Shown here in pieces: positions 3,053-63,357 of a stretch of DNA of 64,000 nt; position 1 is the first letter of the stretch, and every line of letters begins with the position of its first letter. The DNA comes from Hyphomicrobiales bacterium 4NK60-0047b (GTDB lineage: Bacteria; Pseudomonadota; Alphaproteobacteria; Rhizobiales; HXMU1428-3). The notes under the pieces were generated by a model. It saw only the letters and a list, made by a program, of their open reading frames with translations, was not told where the DNA came from and did no database searches. Where the stretch lies: positions 186,001-250,000 of the forward strand of contig BAABWY010000005.1 in the NCBI GenBank assembly GCA_040367435.1. Direction: 5' to 3'. The position numbers and the translations under genes were made by a program.

Positions 3053-3817
3053 ATGAAATTAGATAATAGCATTTCTGCTGTTGTTACTGGTGCCGCTTCT
3101 GGTCTTGGTGAAGCTGTGGCTCGCGCTCTAGCAGCCAAGGGTGTTCGCGTTACTATTTTTGATATGAATGACGAGCTTGGCAATTTTGTTGCAGGTGACA
3201 TCAACGGGCAATTTGTTTCTGTTGATGTGTCTGATCCAGAAAGTGTGCGACAAGGTTTTGAGGCTGCTCGTACTTCTCATGGCCAAGAGCGAATTATGAT
3301 AAATTGCGCAGGCATTGCACCATCAGCTAAAACAGTTTCTCGTGGCAATGCTCATGATGCAGCTCTTTTTGCAAAGACGGTTGCTGTGAATTTGGTTGGT
3401 AGTTTTAACACTGCCTCACAATCTGCTGAGGGCATGACGAAGGCTGCCCCGCTTGAGGGAAGTGAACGCGGTGTGATTATCAACACGGCGTCTGTTGCGG
3501 CATATGATGGGCAGGTCGGGCAAATTGCTTATGCCTCCTCAAAGGGCGGTGTTGTTGGACTAACCCTGCCGATGGCAAGGGATCTTTCTTCTCATGGTAT
3601 TCGTGTGGTGGCCATTGCCCCTGGCATTTTCAAAACACCGATGATGGCGCAATTTTCTCAAGAAATACAGGATGCACTTGGAGCGCAAGTGCCGTTTCCT
3701 TCACGACTTGGGGAACCTGATGAATTTGCCTCTCTTGGGGTGCATATATGCGAAAACCAAATGCTCAATGGTGAAGTCATTCGTCTCGATGGCGCTATTC
3801 GCATGGCGCCGCGTTAA
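3053..3817 (+). CDS. SDR-family 3-hydroxyacyl-CoA dehydrogenase (HSD10-like)
   Basis: 254 aa classical short-chain dehydrogenase. The NAD-binding motif TGAASGLG is at residues 13-20 and the active site YASSK near residue 164. Closest in style to type II 3-hydroxyacyl-CoA / 2-methyl-3-hydroxybutyryl-CoA dehydrogenases (HSD17B10 group), as judged from the N-terminal pattern and the segment APGIFKTPMM near residue 187. It would supply the ketoacyl-CoA for the thiolase just upstream. Last gene of the operon; a strong intrinsic terminator follows within 30 bp. Confidence 0.88.
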   Translation: MKLDNSISAVVTGAASGLGEAVARALAAKGVRVTIFDMNDELGNFVAGDINGQFVSVDVSDPESVRQGFEAARTSHGQERIMINCAGIAPSAKTVSRGNAHDAALFAKTVAVNLVGSFNTASQSAEGMTKAAPLEGSERGVIINTASVAAYDGQVGQIAYASSKGGVVGLTLPMARDLSSHGIRVVAIAPGIFKTPMMAQFSQEIQDALGAQVPFPSRLGEPDEFASLGVHICENQMLNGEVIRLDGAIRMAPR

Positions 3818-12262: not shown

Positions 12263-13672
12263 GTGAGCAAACAATCTCGTCAAAAAAAAGCGGACAATCA
12301 TTCAAAAGGAGTTGGTCTGGCAAAAGATGCTGGTCTAACACCACGTTTCATTGTGCAAGATTGGCTCTTTGATATTTTCCGTCGCGCGAAGCCCTTAGAT
12401 GATCTATTGTCTCAAAGCGAAAACAATAGTGACTGGCAAAAGCTAAATTCTAGAGACCGGGCTTTTGCTCGTTCTTTGCTCATGACCTCATTACGTCATA
12501 AGGGTGAGATAGATTGGATTGTCGGACAGTTTTTAAAGAAACCACCTCAGGCTAAAACGAGAGTCAATGAAATATTGTGCCTTGGTGTTGCGCAATTGCT
12601 TTACATGGAAGTCTCGGATCATGCGGCGATTGATACCAGTGTTCGGTTAGCGAAACGATCAGACAAATCTCGTCACCTAGCGAAACTTGTCAATGCCATA
12701 TTGCGTCAAGTTACGCGGGCCGAACCTAAGGAGCTTACTCCACCAGAGGGCAACAACATCAATGTACCTGAATTATGGAAACAGCGATGGGTGAAGCAAT
12801 ATGGTGAGACGGTTGCATCGAAAATCGCTAAAGCAAGCTTGGAGCCAGCTGCTCTTGATATAATTGTTAAAGAAAATGCGGCTAGCTGGGCGACAAAACT
12901 TAACGGTAGAATTATAGGTGGTGAAAACAATTCTCCGGGTTATGGAATTCGAAAAGACCATCGAGGCATTGTCACAGAGCTTGAAGGGTTTACTGACGGG
13001 GACTGGTGGGTGCAGGATTACTCTGCTCATTTGCCCTGTACACTTTTTGAAAGTGCACCCGGCTTTGGTTCTTTGGCTGAAAAACACGTCGCTGATTTAT
13101 GTGCTGCCCCTGGGGGGAAAACCGCAGCTCTTTTGAATAAAGGTGCTGTTGTGACTGGGGTTGATATCTCAGAAAAACGACTTTCTCGTTTAACAGAAAA
13201 TCTCGACAGACTTAATTTCAAAGCCTCATTAGTTCAAAGTGACATTTTAACTTATACGCCAGAAAACCTATTTGATGCCGTTTTGCTTGATGCCCCCTGC
13301 TCCGCTACGGGAACGATCAGGCGGCATCCGGATATTTTATATTTGAAGACAAAAGATATAATTTTTGAATTGCGTAAACTTCAAAGACAAATGCTTGAAA
13401 AGGCAATTACTTTTCTAAAACCAGGTGGTTTACTTTTATATTGCACCTGTTCCCTTGAACAAGAGGAAGGGGACTTACAAATTGATCATTTTCTTAAAAA
13501 CAATGACATCATCGAACGCGTGCCAGTTGAAGCAAAAGAAATTGGCGGGCATGCTGACTGGTTGACAAAATCTGGTGATGTTCGTCTTTTGCCATTTTTT
13601 AGCCCCTTTAACGACGATGAATGGGCAGGTATGGATGGATTTTTTATTAGTCGATTACGCTTGAAAAAGTAA
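12263..13672 (+). CDS. rsmB: RsmB-family 16S rRNA (cytosine-C5) methyltransferase
   Basis: 469 aa. It starts at a GTG 4 bp after gapR; no clear Shine-Dalgarno is seen, so translational coupling is likely. The N-terminal NusB-like RNA-binding region spans about residues 25-140. The SAM-binding motif DLCAAPGGKTAALL is at about 276. The two catalytic-type cysteines lie in LLDAPCSATG (about 345) and LLYCTCSLEQEEG (about 394), as in m5C RNA methyltransferases. It modifies a cytosine of the small-subunit rRNA (C967 in E. coli). The following heparinase-like gene and purH reproduce an order seen in many Hyphomicrobiales. Confidence 0.9.
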   Translation: MSKQSRQKKADNHSKGVGLAKDAGLTPRFIVQDWLFDIFRRAKPLDDLLSQSENNSDWQKLNSRDRAFARSLLMTSLRHKGEIDWIVGQFLKKPPQAKTRVNEILCLGVAQLLYMEVSDHAAIDTSVRLAKRSDKSRHLAKLVNAILRQVTRAEPKELTPPEGNNINVPELWKQRWVKQYGETVASKIAKASLEPAALDIIVKENAASWATKLNGRIIGGENNSPGYGIRKDHRGIVTELEGFTDGDWWVQDYSAHLPCTLFESAPGFGSLAEKHVADLCAAPGGKTAALLNKGAVVTGVDISEKRLSRLTENLDRLNFKASLVQSDILTYTPENLFDAVLLDAPCSATGTIRRHPDILYLKTKDIIFELRKLQRQMLEKAITFLKPGGLLLYCTCSLEQEEGDLQIDHFLKNNDIIERVPVEAKEIGGHADWLTKSGDVRLLPFFSPFNDDEWAGMDGFFISRLRLKK

Positions 13673-13861: not shown

Positions 13862-16351
13862 ATGGGAAAAATTTTTAATCGTACGCCCTCTTCTAAAACG
13901 TCTTTCTCTAAGACCAAGCGCGGCCTTGCTCTTGGTTTAAAGCGATCACCTTTGCTTCGTTGGCGTTACGGTAAAACGAATGTTGAACAGTTATTATTGG
14001 TTCCTCGGGATTTAAGAACTGCAGACCCAAGTCTTTCTATTGAATTAGATATGGGGCAATTTGGTCTTGCTGGTGCTACCGTTTTTTTAAATGGCAGCTC
14101 GCCCTTACACGCCACTCCTCCTAATATTAATTGGGAAAAAGAGCTGCATGGGTTCGGCTGGATTCGTAACTTACGGGCAGCTCGAACAGATAGAGCTCAA
14201 GAACAAGCTCAAGAAATTACCCGCGATTGGCTTTCTCAGTTTTCATCACAAAAAGGTCTTGCCTGGGAGCCTGAGGTGGTTGCGCGCCGCCTTATTAGTT
14301 GGTTATCTCATTCTAACTTTTTGCTCTATGAATCTGATGAACGTAGTTACCTGGCCATGATGTCAGCCATTGATGATCATATGAAGTTTCTCTCAATGAC
14401 AGGTATTCAGGCAAAACCCGGGATGCCTCGTTTGCTTTCTCTTATTTCCTTGATGTTTGCTGGGCTTTGCGTGAGTGAACAGGAGAAATTTGCGGACCAA
14501 CATGTGAAGCTCATGTGCAATGAACTTGATAAGCAGATCTTATCTGACGGGGGGCATGTCTCTCGTGATAATTCAGTCCTTGCTAGCATTCTTATTGACC
14601 TTTTACCGCTCAAACAATGTTTTGTAACGCGCAACCTTCCTCCGCCTCAGCCGCTTATTGATGCGATTAATCGCATGTTACCTATGATCCACTATATGAG
14701 ACTTGGTGATGGCCTGATGAGCCGCTTTAACGGTGCTGGGACAACCTTACCGGACACTCTCAGCACTGCAATGGCATATGATGATGCTGCGAACGAGCCT
14801 TTAAAGGAAGCACAAGCATCCAAGTATTATCGCCTTCAAAAAGGGAATGTCATTCTCTTGATGGATGGAGGAACACCTCCTGATCTGGATCTTAGTGCTA
14901 AATCCCATGCAGGATGTTTATCATTTGAAATGTCTTCCGGTTCTTGTCCTGTCATTGTTAATTGTGGTGCGGCACCGCCGGCTTATCAGACGATGGCAAG
15001 TAATGCGCGTGCTAGTGTTGCTCATTCAACAGTGACAATTAATAACCGCTCATCAGCACAATTCATTCATGACAAAACTGTTAAACAAAGTGAGCATCCA
15101 AGCTTGTTAGCTGGGCCTGTAAGCGTGAAAGCGTTTTACGAATCTGACGCTGAAAAGAGCAAAATTATTGGCTCGCATGATGGATATTTAGACCGGTTTG
15201 GTTTGATCCATCATCGTATGCTTTCGCTCTCAAATGACGGCTATAGTTTTATTGGTGAAGACTGGATTGAGGTGGCTGCAACCGAAGCTAAAGAAGATCA
15301 TAAAATGGGTTGGCCTTTTGCTGTTCATTTTCATATCCATCCGGATGTGATAACGACACGTGCAGCGAACGGTAAATCAATTACCCTTACTTTGCCTGAT
15401 AGTCAGGAATGGAAGTTTTCAGCACAAGGTCAAATCATTTATTTAGAAGAAAGTATTTTTTATGCTGATTTTGCTGGTCCTTGCCAATCTGTTCAAGCGG
15501 TTATTCGAGGGAATTGCATAGAGAATAAGAAAATATCATGGTTGTTGGCGAAGGTTGTTAAAACTCATTCAACAAAGCAACCGAAGGTGCCAGAGTGGAT
15601 TTCTGAAAATGTCGTCCCATTAGATCGGCAAGAGGATGAAAATGATACGGTTCCTAAACCTATAAAAGAACCTGAACCAGAAATTGCTGGCAAGTCACAT
15701 TTGAATAAGTCTCAGCCAAAAGAAGTAGATGAAATTAAAGGTGGTATCAAGGGCAAGAAGGCCCCACCCCCACCGCCAACTAAAGATGTACCTTCACGGA
15801 TTACTGATCTTGTTGAGGATGATGAATTTGAAGAAGATATAGAAGACGCAGAGAGTAGTTTAATGGCTCGCTTGCCTCACTACAAATTGCCGGAAGAAAG
15901 GTCTGATGCAAGCAAAGAAGACAAAAGTAAATCTGATAAGAAAGACAAAACGTCAGATACCCCGCCGCCGCCACCTCATATTTCTGATCGGCAAAAACCT
16001 TCAGCCTCATCACCTGCTTCTGTCGCGTTATCAGATCGCATAGCTTCAATGCGCGAGCAGAATGAAGAAAACTTAAAATCAACCAGTGTTAAGAAAAAGC
16101 ATACACACAGTAAAACTGGGGTAAAAACACCGGCTAAAAAAGACAAAACCTTAGATGGAGATGGTTTTGCTAAAGACAAGCCATTACCGGTGAAGAAACT
16201 TCCTCCTAAAAAATCACCTGTAAATCATAGTGAAACTAAAAAGAATACTCTTAAACCATTACAAACGTCGAAAAATCCGGAAGCTTCTTCTAAAAAAACA
16301 GGACCTTGGGCTTTCCCCGATGATGAAACAGGACCTAGTGATGAAGAGTAG
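13862..16351 (+). CDS. heparinase II/III-family protein with long disordered C-terminus
   Basis: 829 aa. Residues about 1-570 match the heparinase II/III-like family found next to purH in Hyphomicrobiales. There is an all-helical N-terminal toroid (WLSQFSSQKGLAWEPEVVARRLISWL near 123; DGGHVSRDNSVLASILIDLLP near 237) and a C-terminal beta-sandwich (HAGCLSFEMSSG, HSTVTINN, DGYLDRFGLIHHR). No signal peptide is seen. Residues about 575-829 are low-complexity: acidic/Lys-rich with two proline runs (KAPPPPPTKD, TPPPPPHISD), an acidic patch DDEFEEDIEDAE and Lys-rich repeats. That tail is about 250 residues long and unlike an enzyme domain. Substrate unknown; a role in polysaccharide turnover is only a family-based guess. 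Confidence 0.82.
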   Translation: MGKIFNRTPSSKTSFSKTKRGLALGLKRSPLLRWRYGKTNVEQLLLVPRDLRTADPSLSIELDMGQFGLAGATVFLNGSSPLHATPPNINWEKELHGFGWIRNLRAARTDRAQEQAQEITRDWLSQFSSQKGLAWEPEVVARRLISWLSHSNFLLYESDERSYLAMMSAIDDHMKFLSMTGIQAKPGMPRLLSLISLMFAGLCVSEQEKFADQHVKLMCNELDKQILSDGGHVSRDNSVLASILIDLLPLKQCFVTRNLPPPQPLIDAINRMLPMIHYMRLGDGLMSRFNGAGTTLPDTLSTAMAYDDAANEPLKEAQASKYYRLQKGNVILLMDGGTPPDLDLSAKSHAGCLSFEMSSGSCPVIVNCGAAPPAYQTMASNARASVAHSTVTINNRSSAQFIHDKTVKQSEHPSLLAGPVSVKAFYESDAEKSKIIGSHDGYLDRFGLIHHRMLSLSNDGYSFIGEDWIEVAATEAKEDHKMGWPFAVHFHIHPDVITTRAANGKSITLTLPDSQEWKFSAQGQIIYLEESIFYADFAGPCQSVQAVIRGNCIENKKISWLLAKVVKTHSTKQPKVPEWISENVVPLDRQEDENDTVPKPIKEPEPEIAGKSHLNKSQPKEVDEIKGGIKGKKAPPPPPTKDVPSRITDLVEDDEFEEDIEDAESSLMARLPHYKLPEERSDASKEDKSKSDKKDKTSDTPPPPPHISDRQKPSASSPASVALSDRIASMREQNEENLKSTSVKKKHTHSKTGVKTPAKKDKTLDGDGFAKDKPLPVKKLPPKKSPVNHSETKKNTLKPLQTSKNPEASSKKTGPWAFPDDETGPSDEE

Positions 16352-16629: not shown

Positions 16630-18213
16630 ATGCTTCGCCCTATTCAACGTGCTCTGATTTCTGTTTCGGATAAAAATGGTATTGTGGATTTTGCAAAGGC
16701 ACTGAATGCACGTGGAATTGAGTTAATCTCAACAGGGGGAACGTCAGCTCTTTTAAAAGAAGCTGGTCTTGATGTTCAGGATGTTTCTGACATCACAAAA
16801 TTTCCTGAAATGATGGATGGCCGCATTAAGACTTTGCACCCAGCTGTGCATGGCGGCCTGCTTGCTGTTAGAGATAATGATGCTCACAGCAAGGCACAAA
16901 AAGACCATGGCATTGAAAACATTGATTTGCTTGTGGTGAACCTTTATCCGTTTGAAGAAACAGTTGCTAAAGGCGCTGATTTTGACACCACGATTGAAAA
17001 TATCGACATTGGTGGCCCTGCCATGATCCGCGCAGCGGCAAAGAACCATGATGGTGTGACTGTGCTTGTTGATAATGATGATTTTGATGCTCTGCTCACA
17101 GAGTTAGAAGCCAATGACGGGAAGGTTTCAGAACGTTTTAGAAAAGTTTCGGCGCAAAAAGCCTATGCGCGGACAGCCAATTATGACGCAGCGATTTCTA
17201 ACTGGTTTGCATCAGCGCTTGAGATTGATCATCCGAAATGGGTGAGTGTTTCTGGTGAACTTTCGCAAACAATGCGCTATGGTGAGAACCCTCACCAAAA
17301 AGCAGCCTTTTACACAACAGGCGATCAACGCAAAGGTGTTTCCAGTGCCACTCAAGTGCAAGGCAAGGAACTTAGTTATAATAACTTAAACGACACTGAT
17401 GCCGCGATTGAGTTGGTGTCTGAATTTGACCCTAGTATTTCACCAGCTGTTGCGATCATTAAACACGCTAATCCTTGCGGTGTCTCAACGGGCAGCTCAT
17501 TAACTGACGCGTACACTAAAGCACTGCGCTGTGACCCAGTATCCGCGTTTGGCGGCATTATTGCCCTCAATCAAACTCTTGATGAAGAGGCGGCAACTGA
17601 GATTACGAAAATCTTTACTGAAGTGGTGGTTGCTCCTGCAGCCACAGAAGGTGCAAAAGCTATTTTGGCGAAGAAGAAAAATGTTCGGCTTCTATTAACT
17701 GAAGGGTTACCGGCACCGAAAGCGGCTGGAATTTCAGCAAAGATGCTTTCTGGTGGGTTCTTATTCCAAGGCCGTGACAATGGCACCATTGAGGAACTTG
17801 ACCTAAAAGTCGTAACAGAGCGCCAGCCATCGGCACAAGAGCTAGCCGATATGAAGATCGCATTTAAAATTTGTAAGCATGTGAAATCGAATGCAATCAT
17901 CTATGTGAAAGATGGTGCAAGTGTTGGCATTGGAGCGGGCCAAATGAGCCGGGTTGACAGCGCGCGCATCGCGGCTTGGAAAGCTGAAGAAGCGTCTAAA
18001 GAAGCAGGCCTTTCGGAAACACTAACCAAGGGCAGTGTTGTCGCATCTGACGCATTCTTCCCATTTGCAGATGGCTTATTAGCCGCTGCAAAAGCTGGAG
18101 CAACGGCCGTTATTCAACCAGGTGGTTCGATGCGCGACGATGAAGTGATTGCCGCGGCAAACGAAGCTGGCCTTGCAATGGTTATGACTGGCATGCGGCA
18201 TTTTAGGCATTAA
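16630..18213 (+). CDS. purH: bifunctional AICAR transformylase / IMP cyclohydrolase
   Basis: 527 aa from the ATG at 16630 ([17 protein letters not shown]), the family's normal start; an in-frame upstream ATG adds 19 hydrophobic residues and is unlikely. It catalyses the last two steps of de novo IMP synthesis. The N-terminal MGS-like cyclohydrolase domain ([24 protein letters not shown]) is followed by the transformylase domain with MRYGENPHQ and KHANPCGVS (about residue 278). The C-terminus [18 protein letters not shown] and [11 protein letters not shown] is canonical. A structured repeat begins 2 bp past the stop codon and may serve as its transcription end. Confidence 0.96.
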
Positions 18214-18215
18214 TC

Positions 18216-18330
18216 CTCTCACGGCTATTCCAAGCGCTTAAGGCGCTTGGGCCTCCGAGGGACGGCGCTAGGCACCGGACGCCCTCTGTCGTCATGTCCC
18301 CCAGTCGAAGTGACTGGGCTCCCTCTTCGT
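18216..18330 (+). repeat. multi-hairpin dispersed repeat, copy A (115 bp)
   Basis: Opens with CTCTCACGGCTATTC. Then comes hairpin 1 (CCAAGCGC 18230-18237 / GCGCTTGG 18243-18250), the linker GCCTCCGAGGGACGGCGC, a middle stem region with GACG/CGTC, the constant GTCATGTC, and hairpin 4 (CCCAGTC 18300-18306 / GACTGGG 18312-18318). It closes with CTCCCTCTTCGT. Same linkers as copies B, C and D; stem sequences differ but pair perfectly. It begins 2 bp after the purH stop. Family not recognised. Confidence 0.85.
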
Positions 18331-18371
18331 GTAGTAGGGTTGTTTGATTTCGTGTAGTAGGGTTGTTTGAT
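18326..18371 (+). repeat. 23-bp perfect tandem duplication at the end of repeat copy A
   Basis: Bases 18326-18348 are repeated exactly at 18349-18371 (unit begins ttcgtgtagtagggttg). The spacer after copy B (ttcatgtgggataggtttttg) is recognisably the same sequence unduplicated, so this is a recent local duplication of the inter-element spacer. Confidence 0.93.
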
Positions 18372-18373
18372 TC

Positions 18374-18440
18374 TCTCTCTCACAGCTATTATTTTTAGTG
18401 GAGTTTCAGGCTGCGCCCACCGGCAATCGCAAGAAACTGT
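18374..18440 (+). repeat. degenerate start of a second multi-hairpin repeat
   Basis: CTCTCTCACAGCTATT at 18374-18389 is one base from the family opening (CACGGCTATT). It stands where copy C stands relative to copy B. It is followed by a different hairpin with outer arms AGTTTC (18402-18407) / GAAACT (18433-18438). Read as a decayed or truncated tandem copy. Confidence 0.5.
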
Positions 18441-40020: not shown

Positions 40021-40033
40021 TTTAGCTTTATGC

Positions 40034-40185
40034 CTCTCACGGCTATTCCAAGCGCTTTTTAGTGGCACTTCAGTTGCCCACAAACAACCGTGCTAGCGCT
40101 TGGACCTACGAGGGGCGGCCGTTCGCGCCGGACGCCCTGAAGGCGTCATGTCCGTGCTCCTGAAGCGGAGCACTCCCTTCTTCAT
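40034..40185 (+). repeat. multi-hairpin dispersed repeat, copy B (152 bp, with insert)
   Basis: Same opening CTCTCACGGCTATTC. Hairpin 1 arms are CCAAGCGCT (40048-40056) and AGCGCTTGG (40095-40103), but the loop carries a 38-nt insert that itself is a CCCAC-loop hairpin (40065-40093). Then come the linker ACCTACGAGGGGCGGCC, GACGCC-ctgaa-GGCGTC (perfect 6-bp stem), CATGTC, hairpin 4 GTGCTCC (40154-40160) / GGAGCAC (40167-40173), and CTCCCTTCTTCAT-like end. It begins 13 bp after the ppk2 stop. Confidence 0.85.
40065..40093 (+). repeat. CCCAC-loop hairpin inserted in repeat copy B
   Basis: GCAC-ttca-GTTG-CCCACAAA-CAAC-c-GTGC: outer 4-bp and inner 4-bp stems with the conserved CCCACnAA loop. It occupies the hairpin 1 loop of copy B, which is only 4-5 nt in copies A, C and D. 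Confidence 0.75.
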
Positions 40186-40205
40186 GTGGGATAGGTTTTT
40201 GTTTT

Positions 40206-40325
40206 CTCTCACGGCTATTCTATGAGCTGAAGCTCATAGGCCTCCGAGGGGCGGCGCTAGGCGCCGGGCTTCGCTGGTGCTACGCCATGTCTCTCAGCCC
40301 GAAAAGGGCTGAGCTCCTTCTTCGT
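40206..40325 (+). repeat. multi-hairpin dispersed repeat, copy C (120 bp)
   Basis: Tandem with copy B (start-to-start 172 bp). Hairpin 1 is CTATGAGC (40220-40227) / GCTCATAG (40232-40239), with a different sequence from copies A, B and D but fully paired. Linker GCCTCCGAGGGGCGGCGC. Hairpin 2 is CGGCGC-tag-GCGCCG. Then CGCCATGTC and hairpin 4 CTCAGCCC (40293-40300) / GGGCTGAG (40306-40313), with end CTCCTTCTTCGT. Confidence 0.87.
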
Positions 40326-40339
40326 TTAGGTAATTTTGC

Positions 40340-40393
40340 GCTTTAGGTTGCCCGCTTTCTTAGCCTGCCTTCAGATGCCCAGTAGAAACAAGC
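40340..40393 (+). repeat. two degenerate CCCAC-type units after copy C
   Basis: GCTTTAGGTTGCCCGC at 40340 and CTTCAGATGCCCAGTAG at 40369 match the 5' halves of the small hairpin units at 61.7 kb, but their 3' arms no longer pair well. They end just before the stop codon of the MliC-SH3 gene. Confidence 0.5.
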
Positions 40394-40400
40394 AACAACG

Positions 40401-40994
40401 CTAGTTACAGGTTTGGTAGGTTCCTTCTACATATGTGCCGACTGAGCAGACGATGCCGCCCCAGTGATAGCCGATGCGGCCTCGATATTTGATTTTGAAC
40501 CAGGGGCGGTCCTGGAACATTTCACCTGTTTTTTCTAATAAAGTGATCCATTCGCCTTCTTTAAGAGATGCTCTTTTTTTATAATGTTGCCCCGGGCCGG
40601 AGCGTACTTTGCCTCCCCACGATTTGGCTTGTCTTGGAAATGAGATTGCCTCACTGTGAGGTTTATTATGATTGGTGCTCGTCACTTCTGAGCATTTATC
40701 ATCAAATTCACCCTGGGTTCCGACTAGTGCCGTTTTCCCTTTTACATGCAAAACCCAATTGCCATTTGAATATTTAGAGCCTGAACCGGATCTCACACTA
40801 ACTAATGTGATTTTTGGAGAACTATCATGAGAAATTTTTGCGATTGAAACATCGTTTTCCTCCAGATACTCAACAATGAGAGGGATGCCTTCATTACAGG
40901 TATATTCAACAGTTGCCGCGAAACTTTTAGTCGCAAAACCTAATGAGAGACATATTACAACCAGTGGAAGTGAGATTTTTTTGAAAAATTGCAT
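40401..40994 (-). CDS. secreted MliC-like plus SH3 domain protein
   Basis: 197 aa from the ATG at 40994, chosen because MQFFKKISLPLVVICLSLGFATKSFA is a good signal peptide. Upstream in-frame ATGs at 41051 and 41033 would add up to 19 polar residues. After cleavage, residues about 28-105 fit the MliC/lysozyme-inhibitor pattern: VEYTCNEGIPLIVEYLEE, then SGSGSKYSNGNWVLHVKGKT and a closing Cys. Residues about 120-197 are a bacterial SH3-like domain: KVRSGPGQHYKKRASLKEGEWITLLEK, WFKIKYRGRIGYHWGG. Both parts bind peptidoglycan-related targets in known families. Likely periplasmic protection against lysozyme; this is inference from domains. Confidence 0.7.
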   Translation of the reverse strand: MQFFKKISLPLVVICLSLGFATKSFAATVEYTCNEGIPLIVEYLEENDVSIAKISHDSSPKITLVSVRSGSGSKYSNGNWVLHVKGKTALVGTQGEFDDKCSEVTSTNHNKPHSEAISFPRQAKSWGGKVRSGPGQHYKKRASLKEGEWITLLEKTGEMFQDRPWFKIKYRGRIGYHWGGIVCSVGTYVEGTYQTCN

Positions 40995-58562: not shown

Positions 58563-58598
58563 ACTGGCTACTGCAGAGATAAGTCTGCATTTATTTGT

Positions 58599-58657
58599 GC
58601 TTTAGGATACCCACGAAACATTCAGTTTTTACGCTTTAGATGCCCACGAAACATCCG
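58599..58657 (+). repeat. pair of CCCAC-loop hairpin units
   Basis: Unit 58599-58624 (GCTTTAGGATACCCACGAAA...) is degenerate. Unit 58632-58658 is ACG-cttta-GATG-CCCACGAAA-CATC-CGT, with inner and outer stems paired. Spacing is 34 bp start to start, the same period as the triplet at 61.7 kb. Confidence 0.65.
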
Positions 58658-58663
58658 TTGACC

Positions 58664-58731
58664 CAACACGCAAAGTCTTTTTTAAGCGTGTTGTTTATCG
58701 TAAAAACCGGTATCCACTTTTACGCAACACG
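58664..58731. repeat. three-arm hairpin region downstream of ccoS and the hybrid kinase
   Basis: CAACACGC (58664-58671) can pair with GCGTGTTG (58686-58693). Alternatively CGTGTTG (58687-58693) with CAACACG (58725-58731) encloses CGTAAAA (58699-58705) / TTTTACG (58718-58724) around ACCGGTATCCAC. The two folds exclude each other. It lies between convergent ccoS and the hybrid kinase and includes the latter's stop codon and last codons. It probably ends both transcripts. Confidence 0.6.
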
Positions 58732-61263
58732 TTTTATTGGTGTCTGCCATTTCAACAAGATTTCTTTGAGCTGCTCTTGTTCAAAAGGTTTGGCTAAGTG
58801 ATCATCCATACCTGCTTTGATGCATTTTTCCCGATCTTCAGGGAATGCATTTGCTGTTAGAGCAATAATAGGGACCGTTTTAGATATTGTATTTTCATGG
58901 TTTTCTAAATAATAACGTACAGCTTTAGTTGCTGCAAAACCGTCCATCTCAGGCATATGGATATCCATCAAGATATAATCAATTGATCTAGCTGCCTCAT
59001 TATAATCTTTTACAATTTCTAAAGCTGCTTCACCATTTTTAACATGCAGAACCTCAACTCCAAGCTTTGATAAAACCGTCCTTGCTAACAAGGCATTTAT
59101 CTCATTATCTTCAGCCAATAAAATGGTTGTCTTTTGATTTTTATTGATTAATTCACATGCTTCATTCTTTTTAAAGTGGCCTGAATTCTTTGCTGTATTT
59201 TTAATTGAATAGTCAGCATTTATTCTCGCAAATAACGAAATTGGTCGAACAGGTCTTGTTAAATATGCATCCACACCTTGCTCTTGCAAAATGGAAAAAC
59301 CACCTCGCTCAGAGACTTCCATAATTACAATAATCCTAGGCCCAATATTTTTAGTACATTCTTGGAGATAAGTTTTAAATTCTTTTGATAGTTTATTGTA
59401 AACTGTATTCGCTGTTTTGGTGTCTAAAATTAGTGTGTCATAGGGATGACCCGATTTGCCAGCAGCAGTAATTTTTTGCAAAGCGTTTTTCGACTGACAA
59501 TATTCAGCACATAGACCTGCCGCTTTTAAAGTTTTTATAATCGCCTTCATCTCGATATCTAATTCACCAACAAGCAAGACATTATGAGGATCTTCTGGTA
59601 ATTGATAGAATTGATAAAGGTGACTTGAATTTTCGCTTCGTTTCAACTCAACTTCTATATGGAATTCTGCACCAGAATTTTGTTCACCTTCGACTTGCTC
59701 TGACGTGATGCTAATATTACCATTCATTTTTTCTATGATACGCTTGGTGATTGCTAGCCCAAGGCCAGTTCCGCCAAAACGACGTGCATGTGAACTATCT
59801 GCTTGCTCAAAATCACCGAAAACTTTTTTCTGAGCCGTTTTGGTTAGACCAATACCAGTGTCTTTCACGTTTATTCTTATTTTTTGCGTCGGAGCTGAAC
59901 TCGGCTTCTCAAAATATTGGTCACTTTTATCTTTTTTATCAGCGTCCAGGATTTCAACTGTTATACCGCCTGTTTGAGTAAATTTGATTGCATTGCCAAC
60001 TAGATTTGTCAGGATTTGGCGTAGCCTCACCTCATCACTGATTAGTGTTTCTTGTATTGTTGGATCTATGTACCAGGCCATTTGCAATTTTTTATCATGA
60101 GCACGGGGCGCTAATAACTCAACAACTGACTGGGCAATATCACGCAAATCAATCGGTTGTTCTTCAAGTTCTAATTTGCCTGCTTCAATTTTTGAAAAAT
60201 CAAGAATTTGATCTATGAGTGAAAGAAGACTTTTTGCTGAGCAATTGATTGCTCTTGCATATGTTTTTTGCTCAGCTGATAATTGAGTGTCCATCATCAA
60301 ACCAGTCATCCCCAGAATACCATTCATTGGAGTTCTGATTTCATGACTCATAGTTGCCAGAAATTGCCCTTTTGCCGAATTGGCACGAAGAGCTTGATCG
60401 CGGGCTTCCTGCAGTTCATCTTCCGCTTGCTTTTGATCTGTAACATCGCGACCAATAGACTGGATTTCGATAATATTCAAAGCATTATCACGAATGGCAA
60501 ATTCTTCCCATTCAAACCACCTTAACCCCAAGGAAGTTGCGATGCGCTGCGTATAATTTCTGCGACCCTGGCCAACCTCAAAATCAGATGGAGGAGTTTC
60601 GTCTCCTGCAATAATAGTCGGATTAAATTTTTGCCCACCCTCTGATGGTAAGAGATTTCCAAATTGCCGACTAAAAGCACTGTTTGTAAAGGTCAGCATA
60701 CCATGAAGATCTTTTCGAATGATGATATCATTTTGGCAATCAAGCAAATCTCGGTAGCGACTTTCACTATCTCTTAACTCCCATTGAACGTCACTAAACT
60801 GCTCAACCTGTTCGTTTAACTCATCGACTAGGTTATCTTTTGAAACATTCGTCGAATTTGATGCTGTTAGGAAATATGCCCCCCAACAGGTTCCCATCAT
60901 CATCAAGATTGAGAGAAAAGACAGGCCAGCCCAGTTTGGGTCAATGGTGCTTGCTAATAAAATGATGGATAAGACGAATGTTAATGTTGAGCAAATGAGC
61001 GATAGAAACGCGCCAGCTGTTATTAGTTTTTTGACTGATACACTTTGTAAAAAACCTTCATTATCACCTGTAATCTCAGCTTGTTTTATTTTTGAATTAG
61101 CTTGATTTAATAGAGGAGTGATATATTCGCTCTGAGTTTTTTCGCAACGAAGCTCATCATTTAAACCCGTAAATGACTGATCTTCACTATCATAACTTGC
61201 TTGTTGATTCAGAATAAATTTTTCTGAGTAATTTGGATTTATAATTTTCACGAATGGACTCAA
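58720..61263 (-). CDS. hybrid sensor histidine kinase with PAS and two receiver-like domains
   Basis: 847 aa, apparent start TTG at 61263; no ATG occurs early in the frame, and GTG four codons in is an alternative. Two membrane helices are at about residues 83-131. A coiled region follows, then PAS at about 165-278 (YRDLLDCQNDIIIRKDLHGMLTFTNSAF). HisKA has MSHEIRTPMNGILGMTGLM near 313. The ATPase boxes are NLVGNAIKFT, DTGIGL and GGTGLGLAIT. A receiver-like domain lacking clear acidic pocket residues is at about 560-675. A complete receiver at about 715-840 has AEDNEINALLA and phospho-acceptor DYILMDIHMPEMDGF. The partner (Hpt or regulator) is not nearby. Confidence 0.88.
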   Translation of the reverse strand: MSPFVKIINPNYSEKFILNQQASYDSEDQSFTGLNDELRCEKTQSEYITPLLNQANSKIKQAEITGDNEGFLQSVSVKKLITAGAFLSLICSTLTFVLSIILLASTIDPNWAGLSFLSILMMMGTCWGAYFLTASNSTNVSKDNLVDELNEQVEQFSDVQWELRDSESRYRDLLDCQNDIIIRKDLHGMLTFTNSAFSRQFGNLLPSEGGQKFNPTIIAGDETPPSDFEVGQGRRNYTQRIATSLGLRWFEWEEFAIRDNALNIIEIQSIGRDVTDQKQAEDELQEARDQALRANSAKGQFLATMSHEIRTPMNGILGMTGLMMDTQLSAEQKTYARAINCSAKSLLSLIDQILDFSKIEAGKLELEEQPIDLRDIAQSVVELLAPRAHDKKLQMAWYIDPTIQETLISDEVRLRQILTNLVGNAIKFTQTGGITVEILDADKKDKSDQYFEKPSSAPTQKIRINVKDTGIGLTKTAQKKVFGDFEQADSSHARRFGGTGLGLAITKRIIEKMNGNISITSEQVEGEQNSGAEFHIEVELKRSENSSHLYQFYQLPEDPHNVLLVGELDIEMKAIIKTLKAAGLCAEYCQSKNALQKITAAGKSGHPYDTLILDTKTANTVYNKLSKEFKTYLQECTKNIGPRIIVIMEVSERGGFSILQEQGVDAYLTRPVRPISLFARINADYSIKNTAKNSGHFKKNEACELINKNQKTTILLAEDNEINALLARTVLSKLGVEVLHVKNGEAALEIVKDYNEAARSIDYILMDIHMPEMDGFAATKAVRYYLENHENTISKTVPIIALTANAFPEDREKCIKAGMDDHLAKPFEQEQLKEILLKWQTPIKRVA

Positions 61264-61324
61264 TCTCGTTTAACTGCCGCATTAGAGTTATTTACTCTTT
61301 TAATGCTCCTCCAGTTGGCTTTTT

Positions 61325-61354
61325 TGTGCTTCAGATGCCCACTAAGCATCTGCA
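61325..61354 (+). repeat. CCCAC-loop hairpin, best-paired single copy
   Basis: GTGC-ttc-AGATGC-CCACTAA-GCATCT-GCAC: 6-bp inner stem and 4-bp outer stem with a 3-nt one-sided bulge. It lies about 60 bp upstream of the hybrid-kinase start on that gene's template orientation. Confidence 0.8.
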
Positions 61355-61520
61355 CAAGCAACCTTACTTTTGTTAGCCTTGAGATTTCTCACTAGCGATC
61401 GGCACGAAGCATTTATCTAAAACAATACACTCGAGTATTAGTTAACCAGAATTCATTTGAGAAAGGCTTAGAATAACAGTTCAAATTTTATCTAATTCGT
61501 ACAAATTTGTAGTTTTTCTT

Positions 61521-61696
61521 CTCTCACGGCTATTCTAAGCGCTTATGGCGCTTAGGCCTCCGAGGGGCGTCGCATTTCTTTCGATCAGCTTATCTGTGCT
61601 CGCTAAAGCTCCGCTCAGGTTGACCTGGTGCACCGGCCTTCGCGAAGCGCTATGCCATGTCACTCAGCCCTAAAAAGGGCTGAGCTCCTTCTTCGT
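61521..61696 (+). repeat. multi-hairpin dispersed repeat, copy D (176 bp, with insert)
   Basis: CTCTCACGGCTATTC opening. Hairpin 1 is CTAAGCGC (61535-61542) / GCGCTTAG (61548-61555). Linker GCCTCCGAGGGGCGTCGC. An extra segment of about 55 bp sits where copy C has its compact hairpin 2. Then GCACCGG..CTTCGC, TGCCATGTC, hairpin 4 CTCAGCCC (61663-61670) / GGGCTGAG (61677-61684), and end CTCCTTCTTCGT. Confidence 0.86.
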
Positions 61697-61702
61697 AAGT
61701 TG

Positions 61703-61798
61703 AGCTTTAGGTTGCCCACTAGCAACTGCTTATCTGAGCTTCAGATGCCCACTAGCATCCGCTTGTCTCACGCTTCAAATACCCATTAGTATCCGCTT
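61703..61798 (+). repeat. triplet of CCCAC-loop hairpins with 34-bp period
   Basis: Units start at 61703, 61737 and 61771. Inner stems are GTTGC/GCAAC, GATGC/GCATC and ATAC/GTAT, around loops CCACTA, CCACTA and CCATTA. The outer AGC/GCT is kept in units 1 and 2. Each stem change is matched by its partner. Unit 3 overlaps the last codons of comM. Confidence 0.87.
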
Positions 61799-63357
61799 AA
61801 TTGATTGTTTTTTGCAATTTGAGGGCTTTGGCTATCTACTTTATTACCGCGATAGGATAAGGCTTCAGCGATGTGAGCGCGGCTCACTCTTTCAGAGTTT
61901 TCTAAGTCAGCTAAAGTTCGTGCAACTCTTAAGGCTTTATGGAAGCCTCTTGCAGAAAGGTTGAGTTTGACTGCTGCTTCTTTTAGTAGCTTTTTACCTA
62001 ATTCATCCGGGGCGGCGATTTGCTCTAACAAGGGGGCCGAGCAGGTAGCGTTTAAAAGTTCAGGGCTGTCATTTATTTTTTCGAACCGTTCTCGCTGGAT
62101 TAACCGTGCCATTGTCACCCGCTTTCTAATCTCAGCGCTGGTTTCAACGGGGCTTTCATCAAGAAGGTCCAGAGCTGTTACGGCTGGAACTTCAATTTGG
62201 AGGTCTATTCGGTCTAGCAGAGGGCCTGAAATTCGAGATTGATAACGCTCAGCACAATTATTCCCGCGTGAACAAGCAAACCCAGGCTCAAAGGCTTTAC
62301 CGCAACGGCAGGGGTTCATAGCAGCGATAAGCTGAATTTTAGACGGATATGTAATACGGTGGTTGGCCCTTGCAATTGATGTTTCGCCTGACTCAAGCGG
62401 CTGGCGCAAACTGTCTAGGACCTGAGCTGTAAATTCAGGGAGCTCATCAAGAAACAAAACGCCATGATGGGCCAAAGCGACTTCACCTGGTTTGGGCCTG
62501 CTACCTCCGCCAACTAAGGCTGCCATTGTGGCTGAGTGATGTGGTGCTCTAAAAGGGCGTGCTTGTTTGAGTTCACCCCCGCTTAACTCACCGGCCAAGC
62601 TTTGAATCATAGAGACCTCAAGCATTTCTTCAGGTGAGAGTGGAGGCAAGATTGTTGGTAAGCGCGAGGCCAGCATGGTTTTCCCCGCGCCAGGTGGGCC
62701 AGACATCAGCAAGTTATGGCCACCAGCTGCTGCTATTTCCAAACAACGTTTTGCGCCTTCCTGACCTTTGATATCAGCCATATCTGGCTTGCCTTCATCT
62801 GAAGAGGCCTCCGCGCTTATTTTAGGTTTTGGTGGACTTAGGACCTGTGTCCCTTTGAAATGATTGATTAAATTGAGCAAATGATTGGGCGCTAAGATGT
62901 CCATATCTTCCGCAGCCCAGGCGGCTTCTGGCCCACATGAAGAGGGGCAAATCAGACCGAGGTTCTGCCTATTTGCACTAATCGATGCTGGCAACGCGCC
63001 CACAACAGAGCTAATTCCACCATCAAGGGCAAGTTCGCCTAATACCAGATACCTTGCTAGCGGGTCTTTTGATATAGCGTCTGTTGCTGCCATTAACCCA
63101 AGCACAATGGGGAGATCATAATGGGAGCCATATTTAGGTACGTCAGCTGGTGCTAAATTCACTGTAATTCTTTTGGGAGGGAGCCCAAGCCCCAGAGCAT
63201 TTAGAGCGGCTCTCACACGCTCGCGGCTTTCAGCTACGGCTTTGTCTGGCAGGCCTACAATGTTAAAGGCAGGGAGACCAGATGCCACTTGCACTTGTAC
63301 ATCAATTGGCTTGGCTTCAACCCCGATAAAAGCAACTGTTTTCACTTCAGCGTACAT
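61786..63357 (-). CDS. comM: YifB/ComM family Mg-chelatase-like AAA+ ATPase
   Basis: 523 aa. The N-terminal Lon-type domain covers residues 1-170 (VASGLPAFNIVGLPDKAVAESRERVRAAL, VNLAPADVPKYGSHYDLP). The AAA+ core has Walker A MSGPPGAGKTMLA near 222 and Walker B GVLFLDELPEF near 302. A zinc-like cysteine cluster CRCGKAFEPGFACSRGNNC lies near 357. The C-terminal domain has LNLSARGFHKALRVARTLADLE. ComM is a branch-migration helicase for natural transformation; many bacteria carry it without known competence. GGGGA precedes the ATG. The last residues LSGY are encoded within a small repeat unit. Confidence 0.93.
   Translation of the reverse strand: MYAEVKTVAFIGVEAKPIDVQVQVASGLPAFNIVGLPDKAVAESRERVRAALNALGLGLPPKRITVNLAPADVPKYGSHYDLPIVLGLMAATDAISKDPLARYLVLGELALDGGISSVVGALPASISANRQNLGLICPSSCGPEAAWAAEDMDILAPNHLLNLINHFKGTQVLSPPKPKISAEASSDEGKPDMADIKGQEGAKRCLEIAAAGGHNLLMSGPPGAGKTMLASRLPTILPPLSPEEMLEVSMIQSLAGELSGGELKQARPFRAPHHSATMAALVGGGSRPKPGEVALAHHGVLFLDELPEFTAQVLDSLRQPLESGETSIARANHRITYPSKIQLIAAMNPCRCGKAFEPGFACSRGNNCAERYQSRISGPLLDRIDLQIEVPAVTALDLLDESPVETSAEIRKRVTMARLIQRERFEKINDSPELLNATCSAPLLEQIAAPDELGKKLLKEAAVKLNLSARGFHKALRVARTLADLENSERVSRAHIAEALSYRGNKVDSQSPQIAKNNQLSGY

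Follow-up and report, generated by a model that had tools for sequence, protein, structure and literature searches.

What kind of object is a short hairpin that recurs with the same loop while both of its stems change? The window, by which we mean the whole 64,000-nucleotide stretch analysed here, raises this question because an earlier note had described such CCCAC-loop hairpins in it and called them functional or mobilised. Many bacterial genomes are full of short palindromic repeats, whose manner of spreading is understood chiefly in cases with a RAYT. Judged from sequence, we give roughly an even chance to the reading that the repeat, termed the A unit, is a non-autonomous mobile hairpin repeat that spreads with two further families, B and C, through single-stranded DNA.

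The A unit is dispersed across one alphaproteobacterial genus (Hyphomicrobiales MAGs). It is about 40 nt long; a 5′ oligo-T tail leads into a hairpin of two storeys, in the order outer stem, 5′ TTYA bulge, inner stem and CCAC-N loop. The B element is a longer repeat of four hairpins, in which the hairpins vary and the linkers are constant (2 of 50 B copies were excluded). The elements located in the window are as follows.

18211..18337, + strand: uninterrupted B element (B family comparison)
18372..18440, + strand: 5′ fragment of B joined to a diverged A unit (by eye)
40029..40186, + strand: B element whose hp1 loop is occupied by an A unit (junction mapping)
40056..40095, + strand: that A unit, between hp1 arms AAGCGC (40050-40055) and GCGCTT (40096-40101); covariance model (CM) 42.9 bits; junction at alignment column 27
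40201..40332, + strand: uninterrupted B element (B family comparison)
40338..40402, + strand: nested A remnants (by eye)
58597..58624, + strand: A unit, first of a pair, stem degraded; CTT anchor 58600; no counterpart in the orthologous intergenic regions of G002, G003 and G006 (by eye)
58631..58658, + strand: A unit, second of the pair, 34 bp on; CTT anchor 58634; CM 36.5 bits; outer stem ACG/CGT, inner stem GATG/CATC; no counterpart in the G002, G003 and G006 regions
61305..61319, + strand: older A hairpin that received another A unit in its loop, 5′ half (ortholog comparison, by eye)
61320..61355, + strand: the A unit inserted in that loop; CTT anchor 61329; CM 47.8 bits; T-run 61320-61325; outer stem GTGC/GCAC, inner stem GATGC/GCATC (fold, ortholog comparison)
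61356..61363, + strand: 3′ half of that older A hairpin, with the GCAACC arm (ortholog comparison)
61513..61697, + strand: B element with a C element in its hp2 loop; many-copy in sister genomes
61574..61631, + strand: that C element, a diverged copy with a T-run and a GATCAG-type hairpin (position by eye)
61702..61732, + strand: A unit 1 of a 34-bp tandem array; CTT anchor 61705 (TRF)
61736..61766, + strand: A unit 2 of the array; CTT anchor 61739 (TRF); CM 47.5 bits
61770..61799, + strand: A unit 3 of the array; CTT anchor 61773 (TRF)

A units stand where the earlier note had placed them, at the six CTT anchors, and the outer and inner stems it named are present. Its 34-bp period holds in the window, where TRF reports 2.9 copies at 61701-61799 (period 34, 80% match), but not as a general spacing: in the genome from which the window comes, 60 of 103 A–A spacings of up to 60 fall at 37-41. 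The third unit of the array has a counterpart that closes the region in G003 and G002. We note that the earlier coordinates miss the larger element beside the A units, and that A also occurs beyond them, at 40056-40095 and as the remnants at 40338-40402.

The strict pattern CTTYRGNTGCCCACNNGCANC matched the own genome 117 times (62 forward and 55 reverse) against 0 + 0 in the control. A looser regex gave 160 matches in 1.04 Mb and a single one when the sequence was reversed, which upholds the earlier view that the repeat is not due to chance. In a separate set of regex hits, 4 of 29 were excluded. With 30% of the own genome read, a covariance model located 306 copies; the search discards overlapping hits, so that tight arrays and short periods are undercounted, and thresholds differ between searches (143 hits at E ≤0.1; 148, 110 and 15 at E ≤0.01). 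This model was used in place of a home-made looser detector, which had a high background (458 leading, 186 lagging). A simple ORF caller placed 258 of 291 copies in intergenic DNA, and 45 of the 143 clusters with scored gene context lie between convergent genes. Density is uneven: sampling 140 kb of C4:1-150000 yielded 5 hits. Among the congeners, for each of which 150 candidates were scored, G001 has 4 copies, G005 41 and G004 45, while G002, G003, G006 and G007 have at least 146-172 each. A viral origin was dropped, as no viral contig matched the A pattern.

Both stems of A covary and the bulge and loop are nearly constant, as had been claimed for the loop and stems. In 140 distinct copies there are 172 double-change cells against 55.5 in shuffles, with a covariation score of 0.344 against 0.122; neither observed value was reached in any of 500 shuffles. 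The stem pair xTGC...GCAy is A/T in 77 copies, T/A in 57 and other in 11 (n = 145). Folded as DNA, single units are mostly no stabler than shuffles: the four gave z values on the + strand of −3.18 (61323-61362), −1.07 (61699-61732), −0.32 (58630-58658) and +0.30 (40056-40096, where the expected fold is not adopted on that strand). The A core with 3 mismatches also shows no excess in the window (62 against 54.1 by chance). The case for A is thus a genome-wide and comparative one. In all four folded units the opposite strand is about equally stable or more so, and hence stability cannot produce the orientation bias described below.

A T-run of at least 4 precedes 291 of 415 A units (70%), against 29% of random same-strand intergenic places; for a run of at least 3 the chance figure is 55%, intergenic DNA on the strand of A being T-rich anyway. 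Its length varies from 3 to 9. In isolated units the T-run before the hairpin on one strand is an A-run after the hairpin on the other. Apart from this run, just outside the 5′ basal stem, and their orientation, A, B and C share little.

Orientation follows replication. Leading and lagging strands were called from AT and GC skew rather than from a mapped origin; a skew flip was sought within contig C4 and none was found. In the own genome 295 of 306 A copies are on the leading strand, that is, they have the sequence of the lagging-strand template, regardless of gene orientation. For clusters in the first 41 sources the figure is 144 of 150 (p 2e-35), and clusters flanked by two lagging-strand genes are still on the leading strand in 51 of 53 cases; relative to the coding strand A is split 51:49. 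In G003, 104 of 110 copies are on the leading strand by AT skew and 99 of 110 by GC3 skew. B behaves likewise (70/72 and 27/30). Arrays of A are direct and in one orientation (about 96%). A therefore has the lagging-strand-template bias that is a trait of IS200/IS605-type elements.

A units are nested in apical loops, both those of B and those of one another. Left junctions could be mapped for 29 of the 33 leading-strand A units that lie between B motifs: the 5′ edges of the four apical loops account for 18, the hp1 base for 8 and a mini-hairpin for 3. The other four comprise three just after CACGG(C) and one within an array. The flanks of A clusters pair mutually over at least 7 bp in 32 of 240 cases (15.0 expected from permuted flanks), and 36 candidate A-in-A nests, 35 of them on the leading strand, include 19 that are clear by reading. 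A test of A in B that relied on stems gave a weak result, with observed/expected values of 21/16.5, 14/10.5, 11/6.5, 9/4.0 and 5/2.5 at ≥4 to ≥8 bp (p 0.079, 0.13, 0.044, 0.014 and 0.11). By manual count the left outer arm GCAC is common to 8 of 10 units at the hp1 loop edge; since these nested copies share an arm and are not independent, B::A composites probably spread as units. Junctions of A in B often carry left-arm deletions, and no target-site duplication was seen at A insertions.

Sister genomes differ in which A units are present at orthologous sites, the comparison that the earlier note had called for. One A hairpin loop is, by eye, empty in G002, where it lacks a T-run, filled by A in the window, and filled by a different A unit in G003. 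Array length varies between species. Syntenic stretches contain 95 own units, of which 43 align to an orthologous copy, 9 lie opposite a gap, 11 have matching flanks only and 32 are undecided. After insertion no constraint is detectable. In 34 orthologous pairs (9 of the 43 were left out for gaps) unit identity is 94.4% and that of noncoding flank 93.9%, and none of 22 changed pairs is a double change that keeps pairing; with a divergence of just ~6%, this test of drift is a limited one. Flank-like divergence and the lack of compensatory change suggest that stem covariation probably arose in moving lineages. Of the earlier alternatives, "mobilised" is thus favoured by species-specific presence, nested insertions and flank-like evolution, while function at each locus lacks support, the 34 pairs showing neither excess conservation nor compensatory change. 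Covariation across copies seems here to mark a mobile structure and not a per-site function, a trap for RNA-motif discovery.

If A is mobile through single-stranded DNA, the moving form would be a tailed single-stranded hairpin. Folding of the lagging-strand template at the fork would provide its place of capture, in many cases a loop's 5′ edge. Stem covariation would then reflect pairing required for moving, and the bulge and loop may be constant through being read by something. Three things can be read directly from sequence: the target of the family, namely the loops of other hairpins; its strand, that of the lagging-strand template; and its history, in sites that are empty in one sister species and filled in another. 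As these are visible although no enzyme of a usual kind was detected, the mechanism is testable.

Searches for such enzymes gave the following. The Y1 transposase/RAYT domain (PF01797) had no match in the own genome or in 6 of 7 congeners; G003 has two, and A and B motifs are absent from those 3.3-kb loci. A Y1 gene may have been lost. The Y2 transposase (PF04986) was not matched in the own genome and was matched once, partially, in G003, with a control that matched 0 of 14 genomes and leaves sensitivity unproved. Reverse transcriptase (RVT_1, PF00078) gave no match in the own genome or in 5 of 7 congeners. REP/RAYT, IS91 and RT-driven retroposition thus receive no support from gene searches of the own genome, and the acting enzyme would have been lost, be of another kind or belong to the host machinery. 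We note that the mobile single-stranded reading is left with no candidate enzyme, and that the left-arm deletions and lack of target-site duplication are unlike a clean IS200-type insertion. None of the 8 genus genomes gave an SbcD (TIGR00619) match, and SbcCD loop cutting as the source of the 5′-edge junctions was rejected on this ground. The control was matched in 13 of 14 genomes (8 over cut-off), the exception being Caulobacter vibrioides, an alphaproteobacterium; either the class is without SbcD or TIGR00619 misses it there.

A doubtful but distinct formulation makes A, B and C a family of tailed hairpins that nest in one another and spread without a dedicated transposase; the everyday enzymes of replication and repair would join short A-tailed structured RNAs, or the equivalent T-tailed DNA hairpins, into single-stranded apical loops of the lagging template, SbcCD being undetected in this lineage. 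Retroposition proper we hold to be somewhat less probable again. Here A, B and C would be structured RNAs, and the T-run, read from the opposite strand, their 3′ A-tail; a 3′-OH at the loop edge of the lagging template would prime copying from the tail, and the RNA 5′ end would lie near the stem base. The enriched T-runs of variable length, which with orientation are nearly all that the three families share, the empty G002 loop without a T-run and the junctions at 5′ loop edges speak for it. RVT_1, however, went unmatched as described, nothing points to transcription, T-runs are common here and prone to slippage, and B truncations have no preferred side: on the leading strand of the own genome 15 copies have the start without middle or end, 14 the start and middle without the end, and 34 the end without the start (17 with the middle, 17 without), many of these being motif misses.

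Replication errors alone are an unlikely source. Slippage and template switching at palindromes would yield arrays, nests and covariation with no mobile process; array length does differ between species, palindrome correction can make double changes, and with SbcD undetected hairpins may persist. Unlinked copies with similar ends (left T-run, right outer-stem end) nevertheless require transfer of sequence in trans, and orthologs show no double changes in place. Marginally less probable still are sites selected by the host, strand-specific hairpins that mark the direction of replication or serve lagging-strand priming or restart. Such sites would fit the very tight tracking of replication, the intergenic location and the constant loop with variable stems. 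They would not fit orthologous loci without excess conservation or compensatory change, copy numbers from 4 to more than 170 inside one genus, the uneven density, or older copies broken by nesting. Ordinary RNA hairpins, terminators or 3′-end stabilisers, are very improbable, since despite the mostly intergenic and partly convergent setting isolated units have the T-run before the hairpin, the reverse of a terminator's order, orientation is independent of gene direction, and the window has 0 Rfam matches at gathering score.

Chi-like recombination sites were also considered and dropped: the stems are variable and the G-rich strand is on the lagging side, opposite to E. coli Chi, although some loops hold the complement of that site. 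Nor is this a CRISPR array, as copies differ and the spacers are flanks or other repeats. Cyanobacterial small dispersed repeats are reportedly very small mobile intergenic hairpins as well (Elhai, 2008).

Returning to the mobile reading, comparison with known systems suggests, as the best reading, that A works like REP/IS200 elements yet lies outside REP. It resembles REP/REPIN with RAYT in being a short intergenic hairpin of hundreds of copies with a single-strand link, and an excised form of REP with a 5′ tail is reported in excerpts of PMC3116915 and PMC6006769. The REP/REPIN 5′ foot GT[AG]G is, however, no constant tag in A, occurring in just 53 of 416 model-aligned units (GTGG 49, GTAG 4); the commonest feet are TTTG (50), GTGG (49) and GTTG (43). 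A further differs in its direct arrays in place of inverted pairs (BIME/REPIN), its loop nesting and the absence of a detected Y1 gene from the own genome. Excerpts of Di Nocera 2013 (PMC3733652) describe CGTC-tagged REPs, alphaproteobacterial short palindromes likewise without a dedicated transposase. Their loops are given there as 4-5 bases, whereas A has the longer CCAC-N loop, a two-storey stem with a 5′ bulge and one-orientation arrays; of 416 A units, 63 carry CGTC in the 3′ foot, and the majority consensus lacks it, so that it is no constant tag. According to parts of PMC6006769 and PMC5371416, IS200/IS605 elements and integron attC sites recombine as folded single strands with a preference for the lagging-strand template. 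Unlike IS200/IS605, A is not accompanied by a Y1 transposase match in the own genome, nor were genes seen flanked by a pair of subterminal hairpins. The rhizobial RIME, ABC and Sm repeats, from the same bacterial order, are similar by description; parts of PMC2573895 count dozens of such structured intergenic repeats, of unknown function. Mitochondria too have repetitive hairpin elements, given in excerpts of PMC2800124 as very small mobile intergenic hairpins together with tandem hairpins; in those of sponge mtDNA, by the same excerpts, stems are conserved and loops vary, the reverse of what is observed in A and B.

The window's contig, C5, is one of 26 in a 3.47-Mb genome. The CCCAC-loop hairpins described in the earlier note are present at 58599-61798. 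Each unit of this repeat, here termed A, reads 5′ to 3′ as a T-run, a short spacer, an outer stem, TTYA, an inner stem, the CCAC-N loop, the returning inner stem, one base and the returning outer stem. The note proposed a genome-wide motif search; the strict pattern gave 62 + 55 matches, and its reversed form 0 + 0. Exact-pattern matches in named records lie in 26 stretches whose sources are MAGs of Hyphomicrobiales, among them Methyloligella sp. DHS20C07 and OFTM213. A covariance model built from 25 copies located at least 192 copies in the genome at E ≤ 0.1, with 150 of 1767 candidates scored. Applied to the window and 49 further stretches (1.04 Mb, 30% of the genome), the model returned 306 copies, a total that mixes cut-offs (143 at E ≤ 0.1, 163 at E ≤ 0.01); many of these stretches were picked for holding copies, so their copy density does not represent the genome as a whole. 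Contig interval C4:1-150000 gave five matches in 140 kb sampled.

Most single units in the window do not fold more stably than shuffled sequences, and the core, allowing three mismatches, is not more frequent there than expected by chance. The case for A thus rests on comparison. In an alignment of 140 distinct copies, which was fitted to the model and hence leans toward it, 91.1% of cells are paired and 172 are double changes versus 55.5 in shuffles, bearing out the stem covariation seen by the earlier reader. Sliding the structure on the same copies lowers the paired cells to 23-49%. A smaller MAFFT alignment agrees (19 versus 8.3), and a plain regular-expression count found A/T or T/A in 134 of 145.

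Two separate measures, AT skew and third-position GC skew, were used to call the replication strand of each stretch, the origin being unmapped. By either skew, 283 of 291 copies in the first 41 sources from this genome lie on the leading strand (144 of 150 clusters, p = 2 × 10⁻³⁵), and thus have the sequence of the lagging-strand template. With contig C4 added the count is 295 of 306. In the sister genome G003 it is 104 of 110 by AT skew and 99 of 110 by GC skew. A simple ORF caller placed 258 of the 291 copies in intergenic DNA, versus 18% of bases. Coding DNA of those stretches splits 51:49 between the strands, and 51 of 53 clusters flanked by two lagging-strand genes are nonetheless leading. 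Four units folded on both strands gave −9.4/−9.9, −4.4/−4.3, −1.3/−1.5 and −2.6/−4.6 kcal/mol, the opposite strand being about equally stable or more so in all four. Fold stability therefore cannot explain the orientation bias; the unpaired bases or the tail must be read by something. A T-run of at least three precedes 240 of 271 clusters, but intergenic DNA on the A-bearing strand is T-rich, with such a run at 55% of random places. Longer runs are clearly enriched (at least four, 291 of 415 units versus 29%; at least six, 101 of 415, or 24%, versus 6%).

Adjoining A units is a longer repeat, B, comprising a T-run, CTCTCACGGCTATT, four hairpins with constant linkers between them and a terminal CTCCTTCTTCG. 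Comparison of 48 uninterrupted copies shows double-sided changes, in one sequence or more, at 22 of 30 predicted pairs, and the linkers are nearly invariant. B is oriented as A is (70 of 72 copies here, 27 of 30 in G003). A third repeat, C, lies mostly inside the second hairpin loop of B (by script flag, in 18 of 25 cases listed); by eye the other seven are three B-like, two chance-like and two free-standing. At 18326-18372 in the window, a perfect tandem duplication of 23 bp lies at a B copy's end, immediately before a B fragment.

A units also lie inside B. The left junction, taken as the start of the T-run, could be mapped in 29 of 33 leading-strand A units between B motifs: 18 fall at the 5′ edge of one of the four apical loops, eight at the first hairpin's base, three at a mini-hairpin and none elsewhere (p = 6 × 10⁻¹², for windows chosen after the fact). 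Three of the four unmapped junctions come directly after CACGG(C); the fourth belongs to the second unit of an array. Of the ten A units at the edge of the first loop, eight have the left outer arm GCAC in common, so B::A composites have probably spread as units and the 29 junctions are not independent events; it is the different loops that form independent classes. Support from a cruder stem test was weak. In a permutation test across all clusters, flank-to-flank stems of at least 7 bp occur at 32 of 240 A clusters, against 15.0 expected. One of the few lagging-side units, at 12889 (+) of stretch L073, is inverted in the loop of B's fourth hairpin and preceded only by TTT. Nests of A in A number 36 candidates (35 leading, 19 clear on reading) and are more varied than those in B. 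The window holds the following:

61320-61355, A unit nested in an older A hairpin's loop (ortholog comparison by eye)

By eye, the orthologous loop of the host hairpin is empty in the sister genome G002 and holds a different A unit in G003. The insertion replaced loop bases, and the T-run arrived with the insert.

Comparison of orthologous intergenic regions, also suggested in the note, showed the pair at 58597-58658 to be absent from G002, G003 and G006, a third congener. Of 95 A units in 13 syntenic stretch pairs with G003, 43 align to an orthologous copy, 9 lie opposite a gap, 11 have matching flanks only and 32 are undecided. For one flanks-only case (L135) the G003 interval does hold an A copy; some of the remaining 19 gap or flanks-only cases may be losses in G003 or changes in array length. 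In 34 cleanly aligned orthologous pairs, identity is 94.4% for the unit, 95.7% for stems, 93.4% for unpaired bases and 93.9% for the aligned noncoding flank. None of their 22 changed base pairs is a double change preserving pairing; in seven a change on one side keeps the pairing, 12 are paired in just one of the species and three in neither. Copies thus seem to drift after settling in place, and the family-wide covariation was probably built in moving lineages; at only about 6% ortholog divergence, the comparison supports this but does not prove it.

A is present in all eight genomes of the genus, the seven congeners holding from 4 to at least 172 copies at E ≤ 0.01 (150 candidates scored per genome). 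Two genomes of one other family gave 1 and 3 matches, and three further genomes gave none. Among 397 genomes of the order, B is multi-copy in seven of the eight genus members and has a single match in each of two genomes from other families. Genome G065, of another family in the order, has a tandem array (stretch L183, about 1500-2100; period roughly 95 bp by eye) that overlaps long ORFs and contains a B-like module, CTCTCACG.CT.TTCC...GGGCCTTCGAGGG.

A is dispersed, oriented, nested in loops, variably present between species and drifting. The moving form would be a single-stranded hairpin that carries oligo-T at its 5′ end and enters the lagging-strand template at folded, open places. Such movement would resemble single-strand transposition of the REP and IS200 types: REPIN work reports a hairpin excised with a tail at its 5′ end (PMC3116915), and IS608-type elements use the lagging-strand template (PMC6006769). 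We found no Y1 gene in this genome and detected no Y2 family, by a search positive in 0 of 14 controls; a transposase may have been lost, and REP genomes without the gene are noted (PMC6006769). A route through RNA, with the T-run a copy of an A-tail, would accord with both the tail and the 5′-edge junctions, but no reverse transcriptase family was detected in this genome. Membership of A in REP itself was rejected: a GT[AG]G foot occurs in only 53 of 416 units, inverted pairs are not the rule and Y1 was not found. The GTGG/GTTG minority (92 of 416) is still compatible with a distant REP-like origin.

SbcD (TIGR00619) was undetected in all eight genus genomes and likewise in Caulobacter, the one control known to be an alphaproteobacterium, so its absence may be class-wide or a model effect. 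In E. coli, hairpins on the lagging-strand template are a target of SbcCD (PMC8053094); the absence of SbcCD would thus let such hairpins persist.

Small mobile hairpins are already known in several lineages. In the open-access literature as far as consulted, we recognised no paper describing the A family or replication-oriented, loop-nesting repeats. A is notable because its strand, its target and an undetected enzyme come together.

Other hairpins were noted. One, whose stems vary around the loop AAACCGG..CCACTTTT, is dispersed (window 58684-58732; stretches L062, L066, L075, L078 and others; 12 leading and 4 lagging in this genome's stretches) and resembles a repeat known from many Rhizobiales genomes. 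In L066 (about 3150-3400) a hairpin with base stem AGAGCA...TGCTCT surrounds A units; by eye, the entire structure is absent at the corresponding place in G003. In L071 (about 14050-14200) an A unit is adjoined, by eye, by a similar hairpin, AGAGCATTT...AAATGCTCT. The chromosome has two kinds of region, C1, C2 and C4:20001-190000 with strong GC skew and C3, C6, C7 and C8 with weak skew. Third-position GC skew is about 0.3-0.45 in most C1/C2 stretches and about 0-0.15 in the weak-skew kind, and the repeat orientation rule holds alike in both.
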